Assembly (NCBI GenBank): GCA_026391075.1
Contig: JAPLES010000067.1
Coordinates: forward strand, 1 to 45,824
Direction of reading: 5' to 3'
DNA: 45,824 nt
Source: Bacteroidota bacterium
Lineage (GTDB): Bacteria > Bacteroidota > Bacteroidia > Chitinophagales > LD1
The stretch's first letter is position 1. The number at the start of each line of letters is the position of its first letter. The position numbers and the translations under genes are program-made. Below are positions 27,552 through 44,621 of this stretch, piece after piece. A model generated the notes under the pieces. That model did not search any database. It saw only the letters and a program-made list of their open reading frames with translations, and was not told the origin of the DNA.

Positions 27552-27590
27552 TGGTTGTTAGTATTGAGTAGTTAGTATTGAGTAATGAGA
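27552..27590. repeat. AT-rich word repeat before the BT_3928-type gene
   Basis: TTAGTATTGAGTAG occurs in tandem directly before the ATG. It is similar to 2463-2500 before the aldolase gene, with the same orientation relative to the gene. Confidence 0.5.
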
Positions 27591-28225: not shown

Positions 28226-29104
28226 ATGACCCTCAATTGCCGCGGAAAAATCATTGACCTTTCTACTCCTGTGGTGATGGGTATTCTGAATCTTACTCCG
28301 GATTCTTTTTTTGATGGAGGAAAGTTTACCAATGAAGAAGCGGTATTGCAGCAAGTGGAAAAATTATTGCGCGATGGCGCAACGATTATTGATGTAGGTG
28401 GCATGAGTTCGAAGCCGGGAGCAGAAGTTATAAGTGTAGAGGAAGAATTGAAGCGGCTATTGAAACCTGTTGAATGTATTCTTGACAAATTTCCTGAAGC
28501 AATTATTTCAATTGATACAATACATGCTCGAGTAGCTGATGAATGTTTGCAGCGCGGTGCGCATATCATTAATGATATTACTGCCGGAAGGTTTGATGCT
28601 GATATGATTCCTACGGTAGCAAAATATAAAGTGCCTTATGTGCTGATGCACATGCAAGGTATGCCGAGTGATATGCAAAAGAATCCTGTTTATGAAAACG
28701 TAACCCCTGAGTTGTTGGATTTTTTTGCAGAGCGAATAAAGGTTTGCCGCAGTGCAGGAATTAATGATTTGATTCTGGATGTTGGTTTTGGTTTTGGTAA
28801 AATGTCCGAGCATAATTTTACGCTGCTCAGAAATCTGAAACTGTTCGGCACGTTTAATTTGCCGGTACTTGCCGGTGTTTCAAGAAAGGGAATGATTTAT
28901 AAAACGCTTGGTATAAAAACCGAAGATGCATTGAACGGAACAACCGTAGCAAATACGATTGCATTACTGAATGGTGCAAATATTCTGCGGGTGCATGATG
29001 TAAAGGAAGCGAGAGAAGCAATTACTTTGGTGACGCAATTGAACCACCAACCCCCTTCCCGCAAGCGGGATGAAACAAAAGGGGGCTTACAGCCAATACA
29101 ATAA
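28226..29104 (+). CDS. folP: dihydropteroate synthase
   Basis: FolP condenses 6-hydroxymethyl-dihydropterin diphosphate with p-aminobenzoate in folate synthesis, the sulfonamide target. The 292-residue TIM-barrel shows VMGILNLTPDSFFDGG, TIIDVGGMSSKPGA, ISIDTIHARVA, INDITAGRFD, MHMQGMPSDMQ, DVGFGFGKM and VLAGVSRKGMI. The last 17 residues, after LVTQLN (HQPPSRKRDETKGGLQPIQ region), are encoded by a dispersed repeat (29047-29086) and are unlike the family. A perfect hairpin ends the gene. Confidence 0.96.
   Translation: MTLNCRGKIIDLSTPVVMGILNLTPDSFFDGGKFTNEEAVLQQVEKLLRDGATIIDVGGMSSKPGAEVISVEEELKRLLKPVECILDKFPEAIISIDTIHARVADECLQRGAHIINDITAGRFDADMIPTVAKYKVPYVLMHMQGMPSDMQKNPVYENVTPELLDFFAERIKVCRSAGINDLILDVGFGFGKMSEHNFTLLRNLKLFGTFNLPVLAGVSRKGMIYKTLGIKTEDALNGTTVANTIALLNGANILRVHDVKEAREAITLVTQLNHQPPSRKRDETKGGLQPIQ
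29047..29086. repeat. dispersed repeat forming the 3' end of folP
   Basis: The core TCCCGCAAGCGGGATGAAAC has a 6-bp stem (TCCCGC-AA-GCGGGA), flanked by CCCCC and GGGGG that extend pairing. A near-identical inverted copy is at 44579-44621, and a related copy lies inside leuS at 32079-32120. Confidence 0.8.
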
Positions 29105-29144
29105 AACAGAAGAGGCGCTGTTTACTGCGCCTCTTCTGTTTTAT
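29101..29144. terminator. bidirectional terminator between folP and flavodoxin
   Basis: A perfect 18-bp inverted repeat (29101-29118 and 29127-29144; AACAGAAGAGGCGC core, 8-nt loop) lies between the two convergent stops, with A and T tracts at the base on both sides. Confidence 0.9.
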
Positions 29145-29156
29145 CTTCTATAATTT

Positions 29157-29678
29157 TCATAATCCAAACTCACCTACAATCTGCTCAACCCATTTTTGGG
29201 TGCGTTCTTCGGTGAGGGTATCCTGATTATCTACATCGAGGCAAAGGCCTACGAATTGGTCGCCACGTTGTGCTTTGGAGAAATCGTGTTCGAAACCAGC
29301 TACGCTCATAAAGCCGTAAAGTTTCCCGCCTTTTTTTTCTACAATTTCAGCAAAGATGCCAAGTGCATCGCAGAAATAAGAAGCGTAACCGTATTGGTCG
29401 CCAAGACCGAAGAAAGCCACTTTTTTATTGGTGAAATCAATTTGTTCCATTTCGGAAATGTAAGATTCCCAATCGCCTTGTAATTCTCCATCGTACCAGG
29501 TAGGCATGCCGAGGATTAGCAAATCGTACTTCGCCATGTCCTCTTTTTTCTTTTTATAAATCTCGTTTAGTTCAATGGTGATGCCCGGCACTTTTGCTTC
29601 GAGAAGTTCTTTAATTTTTTTTGCGCTGCGCTCGGTATTGCCGGTATCGGTGCCGTAAAATAATCCTATAGTTGCCAT
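29157..29678 (-). CDS. fldA: flavodoxin
   Basis: The 173-residue long-chain flavodoxin carries FMN and moves low-potential electrons in the cytoplasm. It shows the phosphate-binding loop FYGTDTGNTE, the aromatic-gate region PTWYDGELQGDWE and GLGDQYGYASYFCDALG. The gene begins 2 bp after the stop of the S41 peptidase gene, so the two are probably co-transcribed although no functional link is evident. Confidence 0.95.
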   Translation of the reverse strand: MATIGLFYGTDTGNTERSAKKIKELLEAKVPGITIELNEIYKKKKEDMAKYDLLILGMPTWYDGELQGDWESYISEMEQIDFTNKKVAFFGLGDQYGYASYFCDALGIFAEIVEKKGGKLYGFMSVAGFEHDFSKAQRGDQFVGLCLDVDNQDTLTEERTQKWVEQIVGEFGL

Positions 29679-29680
29679 AA

Positions 29681-31450
29681 TTACTTTGTGTTTGAAACTA
29701 CTTTTATCTTTTTAATGTGCTTTTGCTTTTTGTTGTTACCAGATTTACCATCGTCTTCTTTTTGCGGTTCTTTTGATTTAAGCGCATCGAATTTAGAAGG
29801 GGTATTAATGACTTGCAATGCTTTTGCATAAACATCATTGATGGTGGCATTGATAACGCGGTAAAACATTCCAGTATCGAATAAGTTGCGACCGATAGTT
29901 GCTTTCAATCGTGATTTAATCAGTTTGTCGCTCTTGGCAAGGTCGCGTTCAAAATTCATGAGCGTATCGTTTTTAATAGCTCCGAAATATTGCCAGAAAG
30001 TTTTCGGGTTCAAACCGTCTTTAATTTTCAATGCGCTGTCGGCTACTGCTGCTTCAAAATATTCAGCCATTAAAACAGTATCTATTTCAAACGCATTAAA
30101 GAATGCATCCTGGTTAGGATAGTTTGAATTGAGTTCGGTGCGGTGTCTGTCAACATACTCTAAACAGAATTTATTTTCTACTCCTTTACGAATAAGCACA
30201 TTGAAAAGCGGTGAGTTCATTGAAGTATCTATGGGTACAAAAAAATCGGGCAGCACTCCTCCACCTCCATAAACGTTTCTTCCGTTTTTGGTATGGAACA
30301 AAAGTGAATCGGCAAAATGGAAAGTGTCTTTACCAAACAACTCACCCGATTCTAAACGGTCTTTGTAATCTTCACGATAGTCTTTGTTGCCTTGCCCGTA
30401 AGGTTTTTGAATACATCTTCCGCTAGGAATATAGTAGTGAGCGGTTGTCAATTTAACTTGCGAACCATCAAGAAGAGTGAATGGTTTTTGCACCAATCCT
30501 TTTCCGAAAGTTCTTCTGCCTACAATCAAACCTCTGTCATTATCCTGAATGCAACCTGAAAGAATTTCAGCAGCTGAGGCAGAGCCTTCGTCAGTCATTA
30601 CAACAAGTCGTCCATCTTTAAACATGCCGTGATTGTTGGAATAATAAGGATAGTAAGACGCGTGCAATCCTTGTGTGTAAACAATGAGTTGATTATCGCC
30701 AAGGAACTGATTGCATAAATCTACAGCCGTGTAGAGATAGCCGCCTACGTTGCCCTGCAAATCGAGAATCAAATCTTTCATTCCCTGTGAGCGAAGTTTT
30801 TCCGTTGCTTGAATAAACTCGGTCATAGTAGTGGCAGAAAATCTTTCGAGGCGCACATAACCTACACTCGGTGTAGACATGTAAGAAGCCGTGATACTGT
30901 AAATGGGAATTTTATCGCGCGTAATCGTGAACTCAATCAAGTTATGTTCGCTCTTACGCATAATGCTCACGTGTACTTTCGTTCCTTTCGGTCCGCGTAG
31001 TTTTTTCACCACCAACTCGTTCGTAAGTTTTACACCGGCAATGGTTGTATCGTTTACCGCAACTATTTTATCGCCTGCGAATAAGCCAACTTTCTCTGAT
31101 GGTCCACCGGGAATAACTTCAAGCACCATCAGCGTATCTTTCAAAATTTGAAAGGTAATTCCTACGCCTTCAAAATTTCCAACTAGTCCTTCTTCGCTCC
31201 GCTTTACATCTTTAGATGCCACATATGAAGAATGCGGGTCGAGGTCTTCGAGCACTTTACCAATAGCATCTTCTACTAATTTCTCATCGTTTACCGTGTC
31301 GGTATAGTAAGTTCTTATGAGGTTGATGAGTTCAGTGAACTTGTCGGTTTGGTCAACTTTTCTTTTTGTTTCCTGAACTGATTGCGCAAATGAATTGCCG
31401 AAAACAGCGAGTAATACAGTGAGAAATAAAATACGAAGGGTTGTTTTCAT
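29681..31450 (-). CDS. S41 C-terminal processing peptidase
   Basis: This is an exported serine protease of the CtpA/Prc family. Domains in order: a signal peptide (to about residue 23, GNSFAQ), a helical region, a PDZ domain (about 90-175, FEGVGITFQI, VIPGGPSEKVGL, GDKIVAVND), the S41 catalytic core with Ser292 (DEGSASAAEI) and Lys317 (RTFGKGLVQ), 25 apart as in Prc, and a C-terminal helical extension of about 200 residues ending in a Lys-rich tail. It probably trims periplasmic proteins. It is divergent from leuS. Confidence 0.94.
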   Translation of the reverse strand: MKTTLRILFLTVLLAVFGNSFAQSVQETKRKVDQTDKFTELINLIRTYYTDTVNDEKLVEDAIGKVLEDLDPHSSYVASKDVKRSEEGLVGNFEGVGITFQILKDTLMVLEVIPGGPSEKVGLFAGDKIVAVNDTTIAGVKLTNELVVKKLRGPKGTKVHVSIMRKSEHNLIEFTITRDKIPIYSITASYMSTPSVGYVRLERFSATTMTEFIQATEKLRSQGMKDLILDLQGNVGGYLYTAVDLCNQFLGDNQLIVYTQGLHASYYPYYSNNHGMFKDGRLVVMTDEGSASAAEILSGCIQDNDRGLIVGRRTFGKGLVQKPFTLLDGSQVKLTTAHYYIPSGRCIQKPYGQGNKDYREDYKDRLESGELFGKDTFHFADSLLFHTKNGRNVYGGGGVLPDFFVPIDTSMNSPLFNVLIRKGVENKFCLEYVDRHRTELNSNYPNQDAFFNAFEIDTVLMAEYFEAAVADSALKIKDGLNPKTFWQYFGAIKNDTLMNFERDLAKSDKLIKSRLKATIGRNLFDTGMFYRVINATINDVYAKALQVINTPSKFDALKSKEPQKEDDGKSGNNKKQKHIKKIKVVSNTK

Positions 31451-31582
31451 TCAAAACTTTTATTGTTCAATCGCAAAACCGAGGCGTGAAAATAGCAATT
31501 TAGAGTTTCGGTGCTACACCATTGCATTTGCAGTAACGCAGAATTAAACTTTCTTCGCAAAAACAATTTTACAGAGATAAAA

Positions 31583-34534
31583 ATGGAATACAAGTTCAGT
31601 GAAATAGAAAATAAGTGGAAGAAGTTTTGGGAGGAGAATGAAGTTTACAAAGTAACCGAAGACCCGAACAAACCGAAATATTATGTGTTGGATATGTTTC
31701 CATATCCAAGTGGTGCGGGCTTGCATGTGGGGCATCCGCTGGGTTATGTGGCGAGTGATATTTACGCGCGTTACAAACGATTGAAAGGATTTAATGTATT
31801 GCACCCAATGGGTTGGGATGCTTTTGGTTTACAGGCTGAACAATACGCGATTGAAACAGGAACGCATCCTGCAATTACCACCGAGAATGCGATTAAGCGT
31901 TACCGCGAGCAGATGGATAAAATCGGTTTCAGTTTTGACTGGAGCCGCGAAGTAAGAACCTGCGAACCGAATTATTATAAATGGACGCAATGGATTTTTC
32001 TGAAGTTATATAACAGTTGGTATAACAAAGAGACGAATAAGGCAGAGCCAATTTCAACCCTTATTGAGAAATTACAAAGTACGAATTACTCCCGCAAAGA
32101 ATCGCGGGATGAAACAAAATTACAAACGAATACAGAAAAGGCATGGAGTGAGTTAACCGAAGCTGAAAAGCAACACGAGTTGATGAACTATCGTTTAGCT
32201 TTTCAGAGTTATAGTGAGGTGAACTGGTGTGCTGCATTAGGAACTGTATTGGCGAATGATGAAATAAAAGACGGCAAGAGCGAACGTGGCGGTCACCCAA
32301 TTGAGCGCAGAAAAATGCGTCAGTGGTTTTTGCGTATAACCGAATACAGCGACCGCTTGCTTGATGGTTTGGATAACCTGGACTGGAGCGATGCTATGAA
32401 GGAAATGCAGCGCAACTGGATTGGAAGAAGTGAAGGAGCATTGGTTAAGTTCAAAGTTCAAAGTTCAAAGTTCAAAGTCGAACAGCCGCTTGAAGTTTTT
32501 ACAACTCGCCCTGACACAATTTTTGGGGCAACCTTTATGGTGATTGCTGCGGAGCATGAATTAGTAAATACCTTGACTACGCCTGAACAAAAAGCAGAAG
32601 TAGAAAAATACATTGCTTATGTAAAAAGCAGAACGGATGTTGAAAGACAACAAGAGAAAAAAGTAACGGGTGTGTTTACGGGTTCGTATGCGGTGAATCC
32701 TTTTACCAATGAAAACATTCCTGTTTACATTGCTGAATATGTTTTGGGAGGTTACGGCACGGGAGCTATTATGGCGGTTCCTGCCGATGATGAACGCGAT
32801 AAGAAGTTTGCCGAAAAGTTCGGGTTGAAGATTGTAGATATAGTTGACAAGAGTATGTATCCGGGTGCAACGATTGAAGACAAAGTGGGTAAGATGATTA
32901 ACTCGGACTTTATCAATGGCATGGAAGTGAAGGACGCTATTAAAGCCGTGATTGCTGAAATTGAGAAGCGCGGAATAGGCAAGAAGAAAGTAAACTACAA
33001 ACAGCGCGATGCGGGTTACAGCCGTCAGCGGTATTGGGGTGAGCCGTTTCCGATTCAGTATAAAGTAGTAGGACAACCTGACCCGCATTTTGAAGGTGGA
33101 GAAACAGATGATATACCAGTGCCTTTAACTCCTGATAAGTTGCCGCTGATTTTGCCTGAGGTTTCTTCTTATAAACCTTCAGGAGATGGTCGTGCGCCAT
33201 TGGCAAACAATGCCGATTGGGTAAAGAACAATTATGAAACTGATACGATGCCTGGTTATGCTGCGAGCAGTTGGTATTTTTTGCGGTACATGGACCCGAA
33301 GAACGACAACGAGTTTGCTACCAAAGACAAGATTGAATACTGGAAGAACGTGGACATATACTTTGGCGGGGCAGAACATGCCGTAGGGCATTTGCTTTAC
33401 AGCCGATTCTGGAATATGTTTTTATATGATTTAGGTTTAGTTCCTTTTGAAGAGCCGTTTAAGAAGTTGGTGAATCAGGGGATGATACAGGGAAGAAGTA
33501 GTTTTGTTTATAGGGTTGAAATCATAAACAGAACAACTGATTTAGTTAGTTCTGAAATTATTGTTTCAAAAGGGATTGCTGATAAAATCAAATTAGGAGA
33601 ATACACCGTATTTCAAATTGTTGATTTGATTGAAAAACAAACAGGAAGAAAAATTGAGGTTGGAGAATACATTTATAAAGGACCCCCTGCGATAGCTGGT
33701 GATATGTCTGTATCTGACATAAGGGTCGATATTTCCTTGGTAAATAATGATGAATTGGACGTACCTGCTTTCACAAATCGAAGAAGAAAGGATGATGATT
33801 TTCTACTTCTACTTACTGAAAACGGCACTTTCATATGCGGTTCCGAAGTCGAAAAAATGTCCAAGTCGAAATACAACGTTGTAAACCCCGATGATGTTAT
33901 AGAAAAATACGGAGCCGATTGCTTTAGAATGTTCGAAATGTTTCTTGGTCCTATTGAGCAGAGCAAGCCGTGGGATGATAAAGGCATTAGTGGTGTAAGT
34001 AACTTCCTGCGCAAGTTCTGGCGTTTGTTTTATGATGATAAAGGATGGAAGGTAAAAGACGAAGAGCCGACCGATGCAGAATATAAAGTGCTGCACAAAA
34101 CGTTCAAGAAAATTGCTGAAGACATTGAGCGGTTGAACTTCAATACTTCGGTTTCGGCATTTATGATTGCTACTAATGAATTGGGGGCTTTGAATTGTTC
34201 GAAGAAGAAAATACTTGAGCCGCTCTTGATTGCTCTTGCTCCGTTTGCTCCGTTTATTACTGAAGAACTTTGGAGTGCATTGGGTAATAAAGAAAGTATT
34301 CACACAGCTACATATCCAACTGTGGAAGAGAAATATCTCGTGGAAAACTCGCACACTTATGCGGTAAGCATTAACGGCAAAGTGCGCGCAGAAATAACTC
34401 TGCCAATTGATATTTCAGCCGATGATGCAAAAGCGCAAGTACTTGCTTTAGATAAAATAAAGCAGTGGACACAAGATGCGGAACCGAAAAAATTCATTTT
34501 CGTGAAAGGGAAGATTATTAATGTGGTGGTATAG
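31583..34534 (+). CDS. leuS: leucyl-tRNA synthetase with in-frame repeat insertions
   Basis: This class I synthetase charges tRNA-Leu. The ATG at 31583 (MEYKFSEIENKWKKFW) is used. It has the HIGH motif as HVGH (FPYPSGAGLHVGHPLGY), the editing domain (VFTTRPDTIFGATFM, YGTGAIMAVPADDERD), the KMSKS loop (EVEKMSKSKYNVVNPDD) and the anticodon domain. At 983 residues it is longer than most. Two segments are repeat-derived: about residues 166-180 (YSRKESRDETK) and about 289-300 (KFKVQSSKFKV). A further insertion of about 100 residues lies before KMSKS (33490-33840); Bacteroidota LeuRS have an insertion there, but this one looks long. The frame is intact throughout. Confidence 0.95.
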   Translation: MEYKFSEIENKWKKFWEENEVYKVTEDPNKPKYYVLDMFPYPSGAGLHVGHPLGYVASDIYARYKRLKGFNVLHPMGWDAFGLQAEQYAIETGTHPAITTENAIKRYREQMDKIGFSFDWSREVRTCEPNYYKWTQWIFLKLYNSWYNKETNKAEPISTLIEKLQSTNYSRKESRDETKLQTNTEKAWSELTEAEKQHELMNYRLAFQSYSEVNWCAALGTVLANDEIKDGKSERGGHPIERRKMRQWFLRITEYSDRLLDGLDNLDWSDAMKEMQRNWIGRSEGALVKFKVQSSKFKVEQPLEVFTTRPDTIFGATFMVIAAEHELVNTLTTPEQKAEVEKYIAYVKSRTDVERQQEKKVTGVFTGSYAVNPFTNENIPVYIAEYVLGGYGTGAIMAVPADDERDKKFAEKFGLKIVDIVDKSMYPGATIEDKVGKMINSDFINGMEVKDAIKAVIAEIEKRGIGKKKVNYKQRDAGYSRQRYWGEPFPIQYKVVGQPDPHFEGGETDDIPVPLTPDKLPLILPEVSSYKPSGDGRAPLANNADWVKNNYETDTMPGYAASSWYFLRYMDPKNDNEFATKDKIEYWKNVDIYFGGAEHAVGHLLYSRFWNMFLYDLGLVPFEEPFKKLVNQGMIQGRSSFVYRVEIINRTTDLVSSEIIVSKGIADKIKLGEYTVFQIVDLIEKQTGRKIEVGEYIYKGPPAIAGDMSVSDIRVDISLVNNDELDVPAFTNRRRKDDDFLLLLTENGTFICGSEVEKMSKSKYNVVNPDDVIEKYGADCFRMFEMFLGPIEQSKPWDDKGISGVSNFLRKFWRLFYDDKGWKVKDEEPTDAEYKVLHKTFKKIAEDIERLNFNTSVSAFMIATNELGALNCSKKKILEPLLIALAPFAPFITEELWSALGNKESIHTATYPTVEEKYLVENSHTYAVSINGKVRAEITLPIDISADDAKAQVLALDKIKQWTQDAEPKKFIFVKGKIINVVV
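32079..32120. repeat. dispersed repeat inside leuS
   Basis: The core TCCCGC (32090-32095), an 8-nt loop and GCGGGA (32104-32109) are followed by TGAAACAAAA. This is the element at 29047 and 44579 with a longer loop. It is preserved in frame as SRKESRDETK. Confidence 0.75.
32447..32478. repeat. 7-bp tandem repeat inside leuS
   Basis: AAGTTCA occurs four times in a row (32447-32474), followed by AAGT. It is translated as KFKVQSSKFKV at the start of the editing domain. Confidence 0.85.
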
Positions 34535-34539
34535 CACCT

Positions 34540-34626
34540 CCCTAAATCCCTCCGAAGGAGGGACTTTAACAGCCGAATAGTTTTTGGGATTTAGTTCCCT
34601 CTCCTTAGGAGAGGGTTAGGGAGAGG
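34540..34626. repeat. two-hairpin repeat between leuS and the phosphorylase
   Basis: TCCCTCC-GAA-GGAGGGA (34547-34563) and CCCTCTCCT/AGGAGAGGG (34597-34615) are each flanked by the CCCTAA/TTAGGG word. The right end contains the phosphorylase stop codon. It may act as terminator for both convergent genes. Confidence 0.7.
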
Positions 34627-35497
34627 TTGTAATTATTTCCAACGATTCTTCAATCATCTTAGCAATAATTTTTTTTGGATTAGTGCTGAAAGTATGATTG
34701 ATTCTATTGGCAAGAATTGCATTTACCGAAAGACATTGATGCCCCAACAATTTTCCTATACCATAAATGGAAGCAGTTTCCATTTCAAGATTGGTGATGC
34801 GAAAATGTTTATGCCGGAACTGATGAATAGTTTCAATAAAATCTGAAAATTCGGGTTGCAAACGAAGTCGTCTTCCCTGTGGTCCATAAAATCCTATGGC
34901 AGTTAAAGTAGTTCCTTGGGGATATTGCGCTTCAAAATTTTTAAGCAACTCCAATGCTGCACTTGCTATGTATGGACGAACTTCACTAAACTTTGGTTTT
35001 ATATAACTGCTAAAAGCTTCGAGATAAACAGTCTCTTGAATTGAATTTTCGTGCATATAAAAATCAAGCAAGCCATCCATTCCAATTGCTGTTTCAGAAA
35101 TTAGAATGGAATCAATTTCTACTTCTTCACTTACAGAGCCTGAAGTTCCCAATCGAATAATTTGAAGTGATCTCAATTCGCTTTTTTGTTGACGTGTAGC
35201 GAAATCAATGTTGACTAAAGCATCCAGCTCGTTCATGAAAATATCAATGCAACCTGCTCCCATGCCGGTAGACATTACCGTCAGCCGTTTATTATTAAGC
35301 ATGCCTGTATGTGTTACAAACTCGCGATGGCTAGCCTTGTGTTGAATAGTATCGAAGTGTTTGCTTACATCTCCTACCCTATTCGGGTCGCCAACGGTGA
35401 TGATGGTTTCTGCAATTTCGTGCGGCAATAAATCGAGATGATAAATTGCTCCTCGTTCGTTAAGCACTAATTCAGATTCGTCAATGCGCTCTTTCAT
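34616..35497 (-). CDS. nucleoside phosphorylase (uridine phosphorylase-like)
   Basis: The 293-residue protein belongs to the PNP/UDP phosphorylase family, which splits nucleosides with phosphate. Visible are the phosphate-binding start (ITVGDPNRVGDVSKHF), STGMGAGCIDIFMNEL, IIRLGTSGSVSEEV and the ribose/base-site segment ITNLEMETASIYG. Uridine specificity is a guess from overall similarity. The final codons and stop lie within the intergenic hairpin repeat. The gene starts 1 bp after the stop of the metallopeptidase upstream. Confidence 0.88.
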   Translation of the reverse strand: MKERIDESELVLNERGAIYHLDLLPHEIAETIITVGDPNRVGDVSKHFDTIQHKASHREFVTHTGMLNNKRLTVMSTGMGAGCIDIFMNELDALVNIDFATRQQKSELRSLQIIRLGTSGSVSEEVEIDSILISETAIGMDGLLDFYMHENSIQETVYLEAFSSYIKPKFSEVRPYIASAALELLKNFEAQYPQGTTLTAIGFYGPQGRRLRLQPEFSDFIETIHQFRHKHFRITNLEMETASIYGIGKLLGHQCLSVNAILANRINHTFSTNPKKIIAKMIEESLEIITTSP

Positions 35498-35498
35498 T

Positions 35499-37262
35499 TT
35501 AATTCACTTTACTCCACTTAAAAGTTTTGTTGAGTTTATCCTTAGCACCTGCGTTAATATTCACATTCACTAAATAAATTCCTGAAGCAAGATTATCATT
35601 TTCGTAGTTCAACATAGCTTTAGTATCATTAAGAACCGCAACGACTTGCCCGTTCACATTCAACACTTCAATTTTCATTTCATACAAATTTGCATTGATA
35701 ATGCTGAATGAATTTGTGTGATTGAAAAACTTAATCGGGAATTCACTCAACTCATTTATACCAACATCACAAGGACTAAACGGATTAGCAGGATTTAAAC
35801 CATGCTGAAACAAACAATTATAAATGGGGCAATAATATTTCCCTCCTGTAAGTAATGTATCTGCATCAATTAAAAGTTGTGCCGCTTCATCCATCAAAAT
35901 ATTTTGCGCGTAAGCATAATGAGTTTGCAAAATCAAACTATCGGTAGCATCTCGCCCTATTGAACCATTCAAACACCAAAGCACAGCTGACCAAATAGAA
36001 GAATTTTTATAGTAACTGCTTCCATCTAGATCTTGCGGATAAACTTTTGTAGAATTCAAAATTCTTCCGTTCCAAAATTCGTTATGACCATCCCAATTAA
36101 AAACCCAAAAATCGTTGAACGAGTTTAAACTGCGCGAATAAGAGCCGGCTAAATAATCTCCAAATGCTTCATCTAAAGCATTGCGTTCAAATCCACTGTT
36201 ACTTCCCGGGGCAGCACCATCTGAAACAAAGTGGCCGTATTCATGCACACATACATCGGCATCTTCGGCATCATCTACTCCACCTGTACCGTAATAAATT
36301 CGTTTTGGATTTGAACCGGAATAAAAAGAATTATCTGCTCCACTCAACGCATGAGGGTCAATCTCTACCAAACCATCCGCTGCATTAAATCCCAAGGCAT
36401 GGATATGATTTTGCATTGTGCTGATGTGGTAGAATGCATTCACATCTTCAAAACCAGTTTGTGAACGATCAAAATAAAATTGCGGAATTGAGGATGTAAC
36501 AGGAGCAAGAGTTGGTAAATCAAAATCAACCACGCGTACATACGCGCTCTGCAAGGAGAATTGTGAACCGTTGAAATTTGCTGTAAAATTTACAGTTTGT
36601 TCCTGTGCATCCAGCCAACTTGCATTTGCGTCACCATTGTCAACATACGAACCGCCATATACCTGACCGGCAGTAGTCAACGGGTCGGGATTAAAAACTT
36701 TTCCGCTCACCATTGAATCGGGTGGAGCAGCATACATATTCATATCGCGGCTGAAAATTGTTTCGCCATTTACACTCAAAATTTCAGTCGAATGATTTTC
36801 AATTTTTCTTTCTGCAACAAGAACTTGTTTCGTTACAGGATGAATGGCAATTACTGAATTCTCATTTGCGTTAGCCGTTGAAAAATTCCATTGCGAAGTG
36901 TTTTCAGAATTATCAAACAACGAATGAATCGTGTTCTGCTTATCGATGTTTACTTTTATTTCGCTTTGGTAAACTTCAACGCCGTTAAACAACTGAGTAA
37001 ACGAATAATGAAAACCTCCCGGGCTTTCATTTCTGTAATTCAATTTCAAAGTCGCGCGCTGGTCTCTCAAATTCTCTAAACCGCTGATCAAATATTTATG
37101 AATATTGGCAGAAGTATTTTCTCTTTCAAACTTCACTTTAGCAAATGAAGATTTGCATCCGCTGTTGTGATAGTACGTGGCAGTATTATTCTCCTCTGCC
37201 TTCTGTGCCACAAGCAAAAAGTGAATGAGCGTAAAACCAAAAAAGAAAATATGCTTTCTCAT
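35499..37262 (-). CDS. secreted thermolysin/fungalysin-like metallopeptidase with T9SS tail
   Basis: The 587-residue protein has a signal peptide (to about residue 19, FLLVAQ), an FTP-like propeptide (about 40-130, YHYSFTQLFNGVEVYQSEI), and a gluzincin catalytic domain with HEYGH and the third zinc ligand Glu in NALDEAFGDYLAGSY. Segments such as DVNAFYHISTMQNHIHALGF resemble the M36 (fungalysin) family. The end is a T9SS sorting domain (FPIKFFNHTNSFSI to LASGIYLVNVNI, final KTFKWSKVN). It should be exported across both membranes and act as an extracellular protease. The nucleoside phosphorylase gene follows with 1 bp between. Confidence 0.9.
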   Translation of the reverse strand: MRKHIFFFGFTLIHFLLVAQKAEENNTATYYHNSGCKSSFAKVKFERENTSANIHKYLISGLENLRDQRATLKLNYRNESPGGFHYSFTQLFNGVEVYQSEIKVNIDKQNTIHSLFDNSENTSQWNFSTANANENSVIAIHPVTKQVLVAERKIENHSTEILSVNGETIFSRDMNMYAAPPDSMVSGKVFNPDPLTTAGQVYGGSYVDNGDANASWLDAQEQTVNFTANFNGSQFSLQSAYVRVVDFDLPTLAPVTSSIPQFYFDRSQTGFEDVNAFYHISTMQNHIHALGFNAADGLVEIDPHALSGADNSFYSGSNPKRIYYGTGGVDDAEDADVCVHEYGHFVSDGAAPGSNSGFERNALDEAFGDYLAGSYSRSLNSFNDFWVFNWDGHNEFWNGRILNSTKVYPQDLDGSSYYKNSSIWSAVLWCLNGSIGRDATDSLILQTHYAYAQNILMDEAAQLLIDADTLLTGGKYYCPIYNCLFQHGLNPANPFSPCDVGINELSEFPIKFFNHTNSFSIINANLYEMKIEVLNVNGQVVAVLNDTKAMLNYENDNLASGIYLVNVNINAGAKDKLNKTFKWSKVN

Positions 37263-37316
37263 AAATTAAAGATACGTTTTAGAAGTAACAAGAGTTCCCT
37301 TGTTATTCACCTCAAA

Positions 37317-38201
37317 TTAGATGGTGTTTGATAGAATAATCATCGCAATAGAAAGAATAGCAAAACCCAAACCGAACAAATTGATTTTGGAAATGCGTTC
37401 TTTGAAAAGCAAAACGCCAACCAACGTAGCAAACAATACCGTTCCTAAATTACTCACTGGAAACACCACCGAACTTCCCCATGAAATAGAGGAAAGTGCT
37501 TTCAAAATAAAAAGAAATGAAAAGTAGTTGACAATGCCAAGTACGATTCCGCCAATTAAACTTTGTAAGTTGAACTTTGCTCTACCTTTTATAAACTGAA
37601 AACTTAGAAGTAGGATGCCCACTATAGCCGCAGCCATAAAAAGAAAAAGGGAGAACTCTTCCATACCATTTGCACCTACATATTTTTTATTGGCAAACTG
37701 CGTTAGCGAATCGCAAGCACCGCTACCTATAAAAACAACCAACGGCAAAATGGCAAACGAAGATTTGTGTTGAGGAGAATGGTTTTCGTCTTTAAGCGAT
37801 GAAAGAATAACCGCTACAAAGGCAAACAGAATTCCTAGCAGTTTCATCCAATTAAAACTTTCTCCATAAACAGTAAACGCCAACATAACCGGAAAAACTA
37901 AACTTAGTTTCATAGCTACTGAAGCTGTAGAAACTCCATAACGCACCGTTGTGATGCTCGTAAAATTAAATACGGTGATAAACAAAGTTCCGAGAAAAAA
38001 TGCAAAAGGAATCCAAGTATGTGTAAAGATAGAACCTGTAACAAGGGAAGTTTTGTCGGGAAGAAACACAAGTCCGCACAACGTTGCGGCTATATAATTG
38101 AAAACGATTGCTTGAAAAACCGGAATGCCACGTTGCTCAAAAACTTTGAAAAGCAAAACGAGCAATGCTGAACAAACAATGGATATAACGAGATAAATCA
38201 T
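37317..38201 (-). CDS. EamA/DMT-family transporter
   Basis: The 294-residue protein has about ten membrane helices arranged as two five-helix EamA repeats, with the repeat start at MIYLVISIVCSALLVLLF and the second after a Lys/His loop (ENHSPQHKSSFAIL). The typical SISWGSSVVFPVSNLGTV and LLFKERISKINLFG segments are present. The substrate is unknown. It overlaps ribD by ATGA, so translation is coupled, which could hint at a flavin-related substrate, but this is inference. Confidence 0.88.
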   Translation of the reverse strand: MIYLVISIVCSALLVLLFKVFEQRGIPVFQAIVFNYIAATLCGLVFLPDKTSLVTGSIFTHTWIPFAFFLGTLFITVFNFTSITTVRYGVSTASVAMKLSLVFPVMLAFTVYGESFNWMKLLGILFAFVAVILSSLKDENHSPQHKSSFAILPLVVFIGSGACDSLTQFANKKYVGANGMEEFSLFLFMAAAIVGILLLSFQFIKGRAKFNLQSLIGGIVLGIVNYFSFLFILKALSSISWGSSVVFPVSNLGTVLFATLVGVLLFKERISKINLFGLGFAILSIAMIILSNTI

Positions 38202-39232
38202 ATTGTGCTATTGATAATTATTTTCAGTTTATCGGTTTCAATTTCTGCTTCTTCAATAACAAATCCCGAAATTGTTGGTGATGGTTTCCCAGCTTTCAAT
38301 TGATGAGGAGTGGTGAATATTCTCGCTTCATCCCACAGATTTTGGGAGATGAAATGTTGCAAGGTATCGGGACCACCTTCAATTATTATGGATTGAATTT
38401 CGTTGGCTTGCAAGTGCTTCATCACTTTTTCCAAAACATTTTTAGAGAAATCAATTTGAATAAAATCTGTTGATGCATCTGTTTTATTTTCAACTTCGTT
38501 GAATACAAACGTTTTTGCCGTGGCGCTGAAAATTTTTCTGTCCGCAGGCAGCGATAGTTTTCTGTCTATTACAATTCTAACAGGATTTTTGCCTGGCCAT
38601 AAACGAGCAGTTAATTCACAATCATCAACAGCCACGGTATTTCTGCCAACTAAAATTCCTTCCTCTTCAGTTCTCCATTTATGCATCAGCTTTTTCGAAA
38701 CTTCGTTGGTAAACCAAAATTGTTTGGGTTCGGTCAATGCCATAAAGCCATCAGCACTTTGCGCAAACTTCAAAATAATGTAGGGGCGATGCTTTGTATG
38801 AGCAGCAATAAATCTTCGATTCAAAAAATCGGATTCTGTTATCAGAATTTCAGTAACTACCTCCACTCCTGCTTCTCTCAATTTCTGAATTCCTTTGCCT
38901 GCAACTTTTGGATTTGGGTCGTAACTTCCAATAACCACACGAGGAATTTTGTTTTGAAGAATCAAATCGGCACAAGGTGGAGTTTTGCCGAAATGAGAAC
39001 AGGGTTCCAGATTAACATAGAGAGTTGATTCTTTTAATAAATCTCTATTGTTTACAGATTGAATCGCATTCACTTCCGCATGTGCCTTTCCAAATTGCTG
39101 ATGATAACCTTCGCCAATTATCTTGTCATCGTGCACAATCACCGACCCCACCAATGGATTAGGCGCAACATTTCCCAAACCTTGAATAGCCAGGTCGAGA
39201 CAACGTTGTATATAATGTTGGTGCATGTGCAT
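38198..39232 (-). CDS. ribD: bifunctional riboflavin biosynthesis deaminase/reductase
   Basis: RibD converts the GTP-cyclohydrolase II product to 5-amino-6-ribitylamino-uracil phosphate by deamination and reduction. The start at ATG 39232 (MHMHQHYIQRCLDLA) is preferred; a second ATG lies 6 bp later. The N-terminal deaminase shows zinc ligands HAEVNAI and PCSHFGKTPPCADL. The C-terminal reductase shows PYIILKFAQSADGFM and IIIEGGPDTLQHFI. The reductase part is divergent but complete. It is divergent from prmC and overlaps the EamA gene. Confidence 0.95.
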   Translation of the reverse strand: MHMHQHYIQRCLDLAIQGLGNVAPNPLVGSVIVHDDKIIGEGYHQQFGKAHAEVNAIQSVNNRDLLKESTLYVNLEPCSHFGKTPPCADLILQNKIPRVVIGSYDPNPKVAGKGIQKLREAGVEVVTEILITESDFLNRRFIAAHTKHRPYIILKFAQSADGFMALTEPKQFWFTNEVSKKLMHKWRTEEEGILVGRNTVAVDDCELTARLWPGKNPVRIVIDRKLSLPADRKIFSATAKTFVFNEVENKTDASTDFIQIDFSKNVLEKVMKHLQANEIQSIIIEGGPDTLQHFISQNLWDEARIFTTPHQLKAGKPSPTISGFVIEEAEIETDKLKIIINSTI

Positions 39233-39291
39233 GAAGCGAAAATAGCAAAGCAGCAAGAACGCGTTCTGTCTGATAAGTTTATTTTCGGGGC

Positions 39292-40155
39292 ATGACATTG
39301 GCTGAGTTGCAGAAAATATTTTGGCAGGAACTTTCCACCTTATACGATGAGCGCGAAGCGCGTGCTATCACCAAAATTGTTTTCGAAAACAAACTTGAAC
39401 TACAAGCGCATCAAATGGCATTTGAGCGTTTTAGAATTCTAACTCAAGAGCAGCAAAAGCAACTCAACGAAATTTTGAAACGACTACTAACTAACGAACC
39501 TCTTCAATATGTTTTAGAAGAAGCTGATTTTTACGGATTGAAATTTAAGGTCAACAAGAGCGTTTTAATTCCAAGACCGGAGACGGAAGAGTTAGTGGAA
39601 TGGATGGTGAGAGAAGACGGCAGACGACAGACGGCAGACGACAGTGAAATGCAAATCCTAGACATAGGAACAGGAAGTGGTTGTATTCCAATTTCGCTTT
39701 CTAAAAAATTCCCAAAAGCAAATATTGAAGCTTGTGATATAAGTGAAGATGCTTTGCAAGTTGCAGAAGAAAACAATCGCGGCCTTCAAACTCGGGTTAA
39801 GTTCTTTAAGCATGATATTCTTACTGAGAAACTTTCAGCAAACAAATACGACATCATCGTAAGCAACCCGCCTTATATTTCTGTGAGCGAAAAAGAAGCA
39901 ATGCGTTCAAACGTTTTGAATTACGAACCACATTTAGCTTTGTTTTTTTCGGGTGATGACGATTTAATTTTTTATAGAAAAATTTCTGAGCAGGCTTCGT
40001 TGGCGCTGAAACCAAATGGGAAAATATTCTTCGAAATAAACCAAGCGAAAGGAATCGAAGTGGTTGAATTGCTTAATAATTTCGGCTTTGTGAATATTGA
40101 GTTGCGAAAAGATTTGAGTGGAAAAGACAGAATGGTGAAAGCGGAAAAAAATTAG
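39292..40155 (+). CDS. prmC: peptide chain release factor methyltransferase PrmC
   Basis: PrmC methylates the GGQ glutamine of release factors RF1/RF2 using AdoMet. The 287-residue protein has the N-terminal helical domain (to about 105), motif LIPRPETEELVEWM, the AdoMet loop LDIGTGSGCIPISLS, and the catalytic NPPYIS. Between them lies a repeat-encoded stretch (about residues 108-118, DGRRQTADD), in the linker before the methyltransferase domain. It begins a plus-strand run with the next four genes. Confidence 0.95.
   Translation: MTLAELQKIFWQELSTLYDEREARAITKIVFENKLELQAHQMAFERFRILTQEQQKQLNEILKRLLTNEPLQYVLEEADFYGLKFKVNKSVLIPRPETEELVEWMVREDGRRQTADDSEMQILDIGTGSGCIPISLSKKFPKANIEACDISEDALQVAEENNRGLQTRVKFFKHDILTEKLSANKYDIIVSNPPYISVSEKEAMRSNVLNYEPHLALFFSGDDDLIFYRKISEQASLALKPNGKIFFEINQAKGIEVVELLNNFGFVNIELRKDLSGKDRMVKAEKN
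39616..39644. repeat. 14-bp tandem repeat inside prmC
   Basis: GACGGCAGACGACA occurs twice back to back (39616-39629 and 39630-39643). It is built from the smaller word GACGGCA/GACGACA and stays in frame. Confidence 0.85.
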
Positions 40156-40182
40156 TTAAAACAAAAAACATAACTTGCTCTC

Positions 40183-40656
40183 GTGGAAGGCAAACTCATT
40201 ATCTATCTCATTATTGGTGTCGTCTATTTTCTTTACTCTATTGGTAAGAAAGTAGAAGCGAATAAGAAGAGTGCAACATCAACTCCTGATGAAACAAAAC
40301 CTGTTTCTCCTCCTGTGGCTAATCCGCTCGAAGAAATTATGCGCGAAATAAAACGCAAACAGACAGAAGCGGATGCAAAGAAAAAAGCAAGCATGCCTTC
40401 TCCGAAACCGCTGACTTCAAGCATTCCTAAAAAAGAACTGCTGATTCACGAAAAACAAAAAGGAGTTTTTGCCGAAGGAAATTATGAACGCTTTTTAACC
40501 GATGAAGAAAAAGTGGAACGCGGTAAATTGCAAATTGAAAATGAAGGTATCTATAAGATAAAACCTATTGGCGAAGAGGAAGAAGAACAAACTGGATTTG
40601 AATTAGATGCCCGCAATGCCATCATTGGTTCTATCATTTTTGAAAGAAAGTTTTAA
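40183..40656 (+). CDS. membrane-anchored protein of unknown function
   Basis: The 157-residue product starts with GTG at 40183. This gives an N-terminal membrane helix (LIIYLIIGVVYFLYSIG) followed by a charged, Lys/Pro/Glu-rich cytoplasmic tail. The middle is low-complexity; the end has LDARNAIIGSIIFERKF, a compact motif that I have seen at the C terminus of similar short Bacteroidota proteins. Function unknown. It lies 27 bp after prmC and 1 bp before the TonB-like gene, within an apparent operon. Confidence 0.7.
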   Translation: MEGKLIIYLIIGVVYFLYSIGKKVEANKKSATSTPDETKPVSPPVANPLEEIMREIKRKQTEADAKKKASMPSPKPLTSSIPKKELLIHEKQKGVFAEGNYERFLTDEEKVERGKLQIENEGIYKIKPIGEEEEEQTGFELDARNAIIGSIIFERKF

Positions 40657-40657
40657 G

Positions 40658-41413
40658 ATGAAGCATCTGTTTCTTTTGTTACTGCTTAGCTCTACGCAGT
40701 TTTTGTTTTCACAAAATTATCAGGCTTATAAACGCGCGCAGATTTTCAATTCAAGAGTTGAAACCGATTCTATCAACTTGTTTAATCGTTCAACTGAAGT
40801 GGCTCAGCTTGCCGAATATCCCGGAGGAGAAAATGAATTGCAGGCGAAGTTGAAGAGGCAAATGCAATACCCGCAAATGGAGTTTGATAATCATCTTACA
40901 GGTACCGTAATGATTCGTGCGTTGATTGATTCAATGGGAACTGTTGTTGATGTAAAAACAATCAACCAAACTTCGAAAGGGTTAGAAAGAGAAGCACTGC
41001 GACTCGTGAAAAATCTTGTATTCGTTCCTGCATTTACCGTGGCGGATAAACCAGTTTCATCCTATTTTGTTGTTCCAGTAAAATTTGAATTACTCGATAC
41101 CGGTGTAGTGTATTCTACTTGCGAGGAAATGCCAAAATTGAAGTTGAACATGAGTGATGAAAATAGAATGAAGTATTTCGAAAACTTAATCAGTTCTCGT
41201 TGCAACGAAGGAGAAAAGAAAAATAATCATTTGGTTGTTTCTTGTATAGTGGAGCCCAGTGGAAAATTGACCAACTATAAAATTGAAAAAACGGTATGCG
41301 AAGAAGTGGATGCAGAAGGTTTAGAAAAACTTAAAAAATTAGAGTTGACAATAGGTAAGCAACAAGGCAAACCTGTTCGAGCTAAGTATACTTTCATTGT
41401 TCCGATTAAATAA
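40658..41413 (+). CDS. periplasmic TonB C-terminal-domain protein, two domains
   Basis: The 251-residue product starts at ATG 40658 with a cleavable signal peptide (MKHLFLLLLLSSTQFLFSQ). A TonB C-terminal-like domain follows (about 55-145: YPGGENELQAKLKRQMQYP, VMIRALIDSMGTVVDVKTI, LVFVPAFTVADKPVSSYFVV). A second, more divergent copy follows (about 165-251: LVVSCIVEPSGKLTNYKIEK, GKPVRAKYTFIVPIK). Unlike true TonB it has no membrane anchor or Pro-rich spacer, so it cannot transduce ExbBD energy in the usual way. It overlaps or abuts its neighbours; aroB starts 1 bp after its stop. Confidence 0.75.
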   Translation: MKHLFLLLLLSSTQFLFSQNYQAYKRAQIFNSRVETDSINLFNRSTEVAQLAEYPGGENELQAKLKRQMQYPQMEFDNHLTGTVMIRALIDSMGTVVDVKTINQTSKGLEREALRLVKNLVFVPAFTVADKPVSSYFVVPVKFELLDTGVVYSTCEEMPKLKLNMSDENRMKYFENLISSRCNEGEKKNNHLVVSCIVEPSGKLTNYKIEKTVCEEVDAEGLEKLKKLELTIGKQQGKPVRAKYTFIVPIK

Positions 41414-41414
41414 A

Positions 41415-42497
41415 ATGAAAAACGTTTTGACGGAAAATATTTTCACTGATTCTACTTCGTTTAAAAGATTGGAAGATTTTTTTCTCTCCAATTCTTTCAC
41501 GCAAACTTTTGTGCTTGTTGACGAAAACACGAATAAGTATTGTTATCCGCTTATTGCTTCTCTCCTGCCATCACATCACTTTATTGAAATTAAAAGCGGA
41601 GAAGAAAACAAAACACTCAGCACCTGCGAATTGATTTGGAATAAACTGACCGCAGAAAATGCCGACAGAAATATTTTGCTCATTAACTTAGGTGGCGGAG
41701 TGATTGGCGACCTCGGTGGTTTTGCAGCAGGTTGTTACAAACGTGGAATTGCATTCATTCAAATTCCAACTACTCTACTTGCTATGGTTGATGCCAGCGT
41801 TGGTGGTAAAACAGGAATTGATTTCAATGGTTTCAAAAATCAAATTGGTTTATTCCATCAACCCGAAGCGGTTTTCATTCATACACCTTTTTTGAAAACA
41901 CTGAAAGAAAGAGAACTGCTTTCAGGTTTTGCAGAAGTGATAAAGCATTATCTCATTGCTGATAAGACTGCCTTTAATCAACTCGAAACCCTCAAGCCGC
42001 AACCTGCCTCTTCGGCAGGCAGGCTCACAACCTTTGACTGGAATTCCATTGTTAAACGCAACGTAAATATCAAGTCTTTTTTTGTTGAACACGACCCAAG
42101 AGAAAAACATATTAGGAAAGCATTGAACTTTGGTCATACAGTTGGTCATGCCATTGAAACTTATTTTTTAAAGCTTGGGAACGAAAAACTTTTGCATGGC
42201 GAAGCCATTGCAATAGGAATGATTTGCGAGAGTTTTCTCTCTGAAAAAATGAATTTAATTACTGCACTTGAACTTGTTTCCGTTTCAACATTATTGCTTG
42301 ACTATTTCAAATTGCCTTCTGTTCCTGAATCTTCTTTTGACCAGATTTTGAAACTGATGAAACAAGACAAGAAGAACAAAGACAATCAATTTCAATTTAC
42401 ATTGCTTAAAGGAATTGGAAACTACTCTATCGATAATTCCGTTGAAGAGAGCATGCTAATTGAATCTTTAAATTATTACAATTGCCTAGTTTCATGA
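41415..42497 (+). CDS. aroB: 3-dehydroquinate synthase
   Basis: AroB makes 3-dehydroquinate from DAHP, the second step of the shikimate pathway, with NAD and a metal ion. The 360-residue protein (start ATG 41415) shows the NAD-site GGGVIGDLGGFAAGCYKRGI, DASVGGKTGID, the metal ligand region FAEVIKHYLI and NFGHTVGHAIE. About residues 196-205 (KPQPASSAGRL) are encoded by a hairpin repeat. It overlaps aroA by ATGA, so the two shikimate genes are coupled. Confidence 0.96.
   Translation: MKNVLTENIFTDSTSFKRLEDFFLSNSFTQTFVLVDENTNKYCYPLIASLLPSHHFIEIKSGEENKTLSTCELIWNKLTAENADRNILLINLGGGVIGDLGGFAAGCYKRGIAFIQIPTTLLAMVDASVGGKTGIDFNGFKNQIGLFHQPEAVFIHTPFLKTLKERELLSGFAEVIKHYLIADKTAFNQLETLKPQPASSAGRLTTFDWNSIVKRNVNIKSFFVEHDPREKHIRKALNFGHTVGHAIETYFLKLGNEKLLHGEAIAIGMICESFLSEKMNLITALELVSVSTLLLDYFKLPSVPESSFDQILKLMKQDKKNKDNQFQFTLLKGIGNYSIDNSVEESMLIESLNYYNCLVS
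42003..42024. repeat. hairpin repeat inside aroB
   Basis: CCTGCC-TCTTC-GGCAGG (42003-42019) is followed by CAGGC. It is in frame as PASSAGR, in a variable helical stretch before the metal-binding HGHAIE-type segment. Confidence 0.7.
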
Positions 42498-44578: not shown

Positions 44579-44621
44579 CCCCTTTTGTTTCATCCAGCTT
44601 GCGGGAAGGGGGTTAGGCGGT
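44579..44621. repeat. dispersed repeat, inverted copy of the folP element
   Basis: Read on the minus strand it gives CCCTTCCCGCAAGCTGGATG then AAACAAAAGGGG, matching 29047-29086 except for one stem base. It lies in the 256-bp gap 44526-44781, which otherwise holds only the rocD upstream region. Confidence 0.8.

Follow-up and report, generated by a model that had tools for sequence, protein, structure and literature searches.

The window considered here, a stretch of 45,824 nucleotides that forms one entire contig (JAPLES010000067.1) of the 3.6-Mb, 98% complete genome of a Bacteroidota bacterium of the Chitinophagales (GCA_026391075.1), carries short repeats at four sites inside genes, namely two in leuS and one each in prmC and aroB, and at the ends of two more, folP and a gene for a nucleoside phosphorylase. 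An earlier note on this DNA had described these repeats as being of intergenic type and had held that the genes remain open across them; all of the repeats were located, and the frames are indeed open at every named site. That note missed the likely autonomous partner of one of the repeat families, termed F5: a nuclease of the DUF559 family, bounded by palindromes and lying in frame in LeuRS, IleRS, UvrA and other proteins. The F5 palindromes at the end of folP and in the spacer between leuS and the phosphorylase gene appear to have the design of the ends of such DUF559 elements, and we read the whole as a palindrome-ended, unspliced selfish nuclease element with non-autonomous derivatives. 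The sequence comparisons on which this reading rests bring out palindromes that match as inverted pairs and vary together with the nuclease, embedding of the element in frame, a slot found in four states, conserved acidic residues and one insert that looks younger than its host gene.

At one slot of LeuRS, 11 of the 60 genomes compared hold an in-frame insert of roughly 160–180 amino acids (aa), in which a DUF559 domain lies between two inverted F5-type palindromes. Matches to DUF559 over the 60 genomes number 92 by summed table count, in 36 genomes; two at contig ends were left out, and from the 90 read, 74 genes were kept that scored above 80 bits, were full-length and had enough flank. A matched inverted palindrome pair accompanies 64 of these 74, against one of 107 control open reading frames (ORFs) drawn from the window and syntenic relatives. 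The flanks of different elements, when paired crosswise, match in only 23 of 364 cases, and thus the palindrome pair is mostly element-specific. In a second, named set comprising the best 80 of 531 DUF559 loci, matched ends were seen in 41 of the 78 scored (two had no flank), while shifted controls gave 2 of 142 and cross-pairings 33 of 308; the two sets overlap, with identical ends suggesting that L308 equals L171, L311 equals L132, L329 equals L193 and L347 equals L126. The end arms tend to form hairpins, with a stem of at least 7 in 33 of 64 versus 6 of 64 control segments. Moreover, the closer two nucleases are in identity, the more alike are their palindromes (Mantel r 0.536 over 64 elements; 0/2000 permutations), and this also holds among 48 elements taken one per synthetase slot (r 0.433; 0/2000 permutations). 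Of 198 genomes sampled across the phylum, 109 carry DUF559, and at least 31 open frames of at least 280 aa carry it among the matches listed (our own count). GIY-YIG nucleases were considered as another group that might own ends of this kind and set aside: in a comparison of 30 loci, taken from a longer list, the end-matching score was reached by 8 of 23 genes standing alone against none of 7 UvrC-type genes, a signal much weaker than that of DUF559.

In 23 of the 74 genes the DUF559 domain is embedded in a host protein, with at least 100 aa of the latter on either side in one frame; the hosts identified by Pfam include LeuRS, IleRS, UvrA, MetH, an Eco57I-type methylase, HsdR and a MeaB protein, the embedded copy of the present genome being that in IleRS (L140). 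In the named set, 30 of 80 loci have the domain flanked on either side by 80 aa or more of host, and Pfam adds RecG, chorismate synthase, UDP-GlcNAc epimerase, ValRS, an Lhr helicase and MmeI-type enzymes, the remaining hosts of that set having been named by eye. The embedded copies include some from isolate genomes (Dysgonomonas, Winogradskyella, Tamlana and Ilyomonas), which argues against assembly error. A scan of 17 ORFs bearing DUF559, run along with UroD and FMN-binding fusions, showed no intein family, nor was one found in the IleRS ORF of a Bacteroidales metagenome-assembled genome (L340), and no intron was found by Rfam at four loci (L140, L127, L126 and L131); therefore, the host protein should contain the DUF559 domain. 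An AlphaFold2 model of LeuRS with the embedded domain had a mean pLDDT (predicted local distance difference test) of 51.9 and was unusable for loop placement, with the nuclease segment at about 56–85. The IleRS ORF of L340 has two DUF559 stretches, in a slot that differs from that of the present genome, and an HsdR protein (L146, residues 266–334) carries two inserted domains, one GIY-YIG and one DUF559.

The slots themselves are found in several states. Within a single genus, and between the same flanking residues, the UvrA slot may be empty (13 aa in the present genome, G001, G004, G010 and G014), measure 17 aa (G013), hold a solo palindrome (24 aa, G008), hold an inverted pair without the nuclease (38 aa, G015) or hold the full element with DUF559 (161 aa, G017), the insertion replacing about seven codons; here, 9 of 20 loci were read by script and five more were printed with a short slot visible. 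At the IleRS slot, read in 27 of 30 loci, 14 aa are found in 17, 165–168 aa with DUF559 in seven, and 15, 25 and 26 aa in one each, that of 26 aa (G012) looking like a palindrome remnant. The IleRS insert shared by the present genome and G015, a sister genome of the same genus that is syntenic over much of the window's region at 84–91% nucleotide identity, appears clearly younger than the host gene: the proportion of synonymous differences (pS) is 0.250 in the insert, versus 0.552 and 0.581 in the 5′ and 3′ parts of the host, the 5′ part of G015 in this comparison including a mosaic stretch. The IleRS of G004 is empty, though it is no farther from the present genome (pS 0.467 and 0.497), while by LeuRS G015 is slightly nearer. 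Turnover is visible at the LeuRS slot, where G028 and G023 have hosts that are 98% identical and inserts at the same slot that are only 43.5% identical. Also at this slot, one LeuRS (G052:C6:39995-43312) has a gap of about 185 aa with the frame open, in a genome without a DUF559 match. A second IleRS slot in G015 (L217) and G026 (L220) has palindromes bracketing about 21 aa of host sequence, which is 90% identical between these two genera and only 71% between G015 and the present genome, G010, G004 and G017; such palindromes may even transfer pieces of host genes from one genus to another. In the same second region, the IleRS of G006 (L239) has an extra segment of more than 100 aa with no evident palindrome.

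With regard to the nuclease, E16, D56 and E67 are invariant in an alignment of full-length DUF559 copies, embedded ones included. The DUF559 profile matches the PDB entries 3hrl (E 3.2e-34) and 3r3p, labelled "Mobile intron protein" (E 2.1e-5), the latter of which we take to be the catalytic domain of I-Bth0305I. For three stand-alone DUF559 proteins, PADLOC gave just weak nuclease matches. PMC3943268 presents I-Bth0305I as a homing enzyme of the EDxHD type; in Caulobacter, a DUF559 protein is reported to be required for a DNA-damage response (PMC12907096); and transposase/DUF559 segments are listed among recombination hotspots in an evolution experiment (PMC12308824). Judged by titles and abstract openings, the open-access papers listed by our searches, with preprints and most subscription papers outside this scope, describe no palindrome-bounded or in-frame DUF559 elements.

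The relevant features of the window are the following, with Pfam confirming FolP (Pterin_bind), LeuRS, PrmC (PrmC_N and methyltransferase), AroB and the nucleoside phosphorylase:

28226–29104, + strand: folP, an ORF with Pterin_bind at 18–257 of 292 aa and a C-terminal tail ending in an F5+F1 composite
29044–29090, + strand: F5-type palindrome ACCAACCCCCTT...AAGGGGGCTTA at the folP end, reading PPSRKRDETKGGL, from sequence and the F1 family
31583–34534, + strand: leuS (LeuRS, 983 aa), by Pfam
32090–32116, + strand: leuS site 1, hairpin F1, a 27-bp in-frame insertion encoding the peptide SRKESRDETK; empty site in G015
32447–32478, + strand: leuS site 2, an (AAGTTCA)4.6 heptad array, by its 7-bp repeat reading
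34535–34569, + strand: F5 palindrome after leuS, left member of an inverted pair, from sequence; no counterpart in G015
34590–34628, − strand: F5 palindrome, right member of the pair, from sequence; no counterpart in G015
34616–35497, − strand: nucleoside phosphorylase, its last codons and stop supplied by the right F5 palindrome
39292–40155, + strand: prmC, by Pfam
39615–39644, + strand: AGACGRC heptad array in prmC, the gene being 21 bp longer than in G015, by comparison
41415–42497, + strand: aroB, by Pfam
42003–42023, + strand: hairpin F4 CCTGCCTCTTCGGCAGGCAGG in aroB, a 21-bp in-frame gain by comparison with G015
44579–44614, − strand: intergenic F5+F1 composite, variant GCTGGATGAAAC, from sequence; no counterpart in G015

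The F5 palindrome of folP has an F1 hairpin nested in its loop at 29057–29078; folP was not found in the G015 stretches compared. The leuS-phosphorylase spacer of G015 is devoid of the F5 pair and presents an imperfect empty site, with about 12 other bases in its place. The F5-tail pattern GGGGRCTTWAA was rejected as a genome-wide marker, with 14 occurrences here against 2 for the control, but 19 against 26 in G011.

The internal sites behave in two different ways. At leuS site 1, the target is a tract of ATTACAA heptads, which G015 keeps without F1, and at the position of F4 in aroB, G015 has (AAACCTG)2. At leuS site 2 and in prmC, G015 likewise has 7-bp repeats, those in prmC being about 1.5 copies of AAGTCCG. 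Slippage, which had been offered as the alternative, accounts for leuS site 2 and prmC, two of the four internal sites, and not for the dispersed hairpins of leuS site 1 and aroB. leuS site 2 coincides with the slot that holds the DUF559 element in the 11 genomes mentioned above, and 7-bp arrays also occur there in G015, G010, G017 and G009; these arrays and that of the present genome have four different units over the five genomes, and leuS site 2 is one slot repeatedly filled or homogenised, and not a single element that entered. Two further propositions of the earlier note were borne out by G015 and other relatives: the internal repeats are of intergenic type and lie in frame in variable loops, and the peptides they encode are not ordinary conserved sequence in close relatives. 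Elsewhere in the window are a perfect 14-bp tandem repeat (27557–27584, two copies of GTTAGTATTGAGTA) between two ORFs, and, on the minus strand at 2608–2714, a Bacteroidales small signal recognition particle RNA, the sole Rfam match in the window at the gathering threshold.

The hairpins F1 and F4 are dispersed families, present in greater number than chance would give. In the present genome, GCGGGATGAAAC is matched exactly 30 times and with one mismatch 35 times, versus 13 for the reversed control. The F1 13-mer CGGGATGAAACAA has 38 copies here, 34 in G015, 0–15 in each of the 16 remaining members of the genus and no more than one per genome outside it among the 60 compared, its reversed control having none here and five over all 60; the F4 hairpin of the aroB type occurs at 11 places versus none for its control. 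A genome-wide count of copies and frames, as the earlier note had proposed, gives 43 F1 cores, of which four lie within coding sequence (an adenylate cyclase, L008; a DUF255 protein, L019; an outer-membrane protein, L023; and leuS) and one at a coding-sequence end (folP), the frame reading RDET being used in four of these five. The remaining 38 are without a firm coding signal (36 with none and two with a weak one); the START calls for L011 and L058, being weak, were left out of the coding tally, and L025, the leuS copy, is internal despite the START call that the script gave it. The printed F1 copies start with CTCCCG and end with GATGAAACAA by eye, no scan having been made, and often lie within the loop of an F5-type palindrome or within heptads. 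The 7-base periodicity is raised near 21 exact F1 copies, at 0.387, versus 0.265 in random segments of the window. Some F1 flanks repeat, but the F1 targets are tandem repeats themselves. The F5+F1 composite of L008 reads LSQTL...EGEGLNTNT, which is close to the peptide that the palindrome of the DUF559 insert gives in the LeuRS of G020 (L094); the stand-alone DUF559 copy of the present genome (C90) adjoins F1 copies nested in larger palindromes; and in the LeuRS of G047 (L091) an F4-like hairpin is found next to heptads at the DUF559 slot.

Taken together, it is rather probable that two processes mix here, both filling the same tolerant loops of housekeeping genes. On one hand, heptad arrays would grow, shrink and homogenise by slippage, as at leuS site 2, in prmC and in the tracts that received hairpins; on the other, palindromic cassettes would insert, namely F1 in leuS, F4 in aroB and F5 at folP and in the leuS-phosphorylase spacer, with hairpins inserting into heptad arrays. 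The F5-type palindromes would derive from a mobile element, as its ends, as single copies or as pairs that lack the nuclease; in its autonomous form, this element would encode a Vsr-like, homing-type DUF559 nuclease between two inverted palindromes. This nuclease might break DNA at the target, and repair might then copy the palindrome-bounded element into the break, with the replacement of a few codons. Within genes, only stop-free, in-frame copies in loops would persist, tolerated by the host enzyme, and these might survive unspliced because both palindromes read stop-free as linkers rich in Pro, Gly, Ser and Glu. The solo palindromes and pairs would be non-autonomous derivatives, working like miniature inverted-repeat transposable elements (MITEs) or repetitive extragenic palindromes (REPs). 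F1 and F4 may be moved by this enzyme or by another, the link for F1 being weak.

Several findings weigh against this explanation. The end-matching score was missed by 10 of the 74 DUF559 genes and 37 of the 78 named loci, with all six RecG-embedded copies lacking matched ends by the score used; the F5-tail pattern is not above control in many relatives; and F1 lies within 600 nt of just 4 of 40 same-genus DUF559 genes. Insertions into UvrA and IleRS replace about 7–12 codons, and a target-site duplication is not clear. A clearly younger insert is seen in just one of 21 IleRS pairs, that of the present genome and G015, and in G020, G023 and G025 the IleRS insert has diverged as much as the host or more, which would fit vertical descent. 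Divergence along with the host is also what one would expect if the embedded DUF559 were a domesticated, vertically inherited accessory domain of its host enzymes, as are a ratio of nonsynonymous to synonymous change (dN/dS) of 0.06 in the IleRS insert, the single clade formed by the IleRS-embedded copies and the recurrence of RecG-embedded copies in several Flavobacteriaceae loci. Patchy occupancy with empty close relatives, unrelated lineages at one LeuRS slot and nuclease-less palindromes at one UvrA slot speak against domestication, which we deem very unlikely.

A different view would have the palindromes as a separate mobile repeat family, moved by another enzyme, with DUF559 genes as passengers caught between two copies. 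Solo palindromes and nuclease-less pairs, those of the window included, are in keeping with it, and so are the DUF559 genes without matched ends; it is nonetheless unlikely, with element-specific ends that track nuclease identity being unexpected for randomly caught passengers. F1 and F4 might instead be REP-like elements mobilised by a Y1 transposase of the REP-associated tyrosine transposase (RAYT) type, a decidedly unlikely option that draws on their size and hairpin form and on four Y1 matches in the genome; against it, the F1 and F4 patterns were not found at the four Y1 loci (F5 was not scanned there), and the two Y1 flanks read by eye hold other palindromes. These two Y1 genes (L048 and L050) lie between palindromes of their own, of the GGCATGACT and GTGTCAGACAC types; the GTGTCAGACAC type ends an adjacent ORF, where it encodes KVSDTSKVSDT. 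Lastly, that all of the window's sites are products of local slippage and recombination, with no mobile element needed, is most improbable: it has in its favour the heptad arrays of leuS site 2 and prmC, here as in G015, and the predominance of 7-bp units among strict tandem repeats (6 of 10 in 165 kb of relatives), and it is weakened by the empty sites, F1 and F4 being dispersed families that are missing at the matching sites of G015.

The element proposed here, a palindrome-bounded nuclease with its derivatives, shares features with several known systems. The earlier note had likened the repeats to Rickettsia palindromic elements (RPEs), for which we know of no mobilising gene. The likeness lies in palindromic repeats found unspliced and in frame within unrelated genes, as recounted in PMC10969869, with F4 in aroB and the four internal and one terminal F1 copies being the cases at hand; it does not extend to family membership, as RPEs are given there as about 150 bp, versus cassettes of about 21–40 bp here (gains of 27 bp for F1 and 21 bp for F4 against G015), and the CGTC end tag mentioned in PMC3733652 was not seen in the printed F1 copies, which were inspected by eye without a scan. 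Furthermore, versions of the F5 type that carry the nuclease occur at the same slots. With REPs and REPtrons, as outlined in PMC3733652, there are in common short hairpins, inverted pairs around a nuclease-type gene and cognate gene-repeat pairs; in contrast, the gene here is DUF559 rather than a Y1/HUH transposase and the gene-bearing inserts are in frame in host genes, while the GTAG end tag was not seen, again by eye and without a scan, in the printed F1 and F4 copies. REPs within genes are known from the same source. The EDxHD-type homing endonuclease genes of introns and inteins, such as I-Bth0305I, have a homologous catalytic domain (3r3p) and occupied and empty alleles at the same slot, as observed here at the IleRS, LeuRS and UvrA slots, but the present elements differ in having no detected intron or intein, several slots per genome family, palindromic ends and solo derivatives. 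MITEs likewise have terminal inverted repeats without an enzyme gene, paralleled by the UvrA of G015 and by 34535–34628 of the window; the presumed partner here is, however, a nuclease and not a transposase, and a clear target-site duplication was not seen. As for heptanucleotide repeats, 7-bp direct arrays are, as told in PMC4679880, the commonest class in most genomes surveyed; those seen here differ in that several species have them, with differing units, at the same coding slot, and in that hairpins insert into them. Thus, heptad biology (PMC4679880) and gene-internal REPs (PMC3733652), as these sources present them, would make parts of the picture ordinary.

What goes beyond these precedents, and is in our judgement somewhat more probable than otherwise, is that these elements form a new mobile class: a small gene for a Vsr/EDxHD-like nuclease with cognate inverted palindromes, homing in frame into the loops of essential genes without splicing, its ends read as flexible linkers, with solo and paired palindromes accounting for part of the dispersed repeats of Bacteroidota, some of which code within proteins. 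If true, this would provide a concrete route for palindromic repeats into essential genes, where they could be the termini of a nuclease element tolerated unspliced, and DUF559, a common Pfam domain of unknown function, would gain a testable biology. LeuRS, IleRS, ValRS, UvrA, RecG, MetH and other proteins in many Bacteroidota would then carry a foreign nuclease domain, which would matter both for their annotation and for work on these enzymes.

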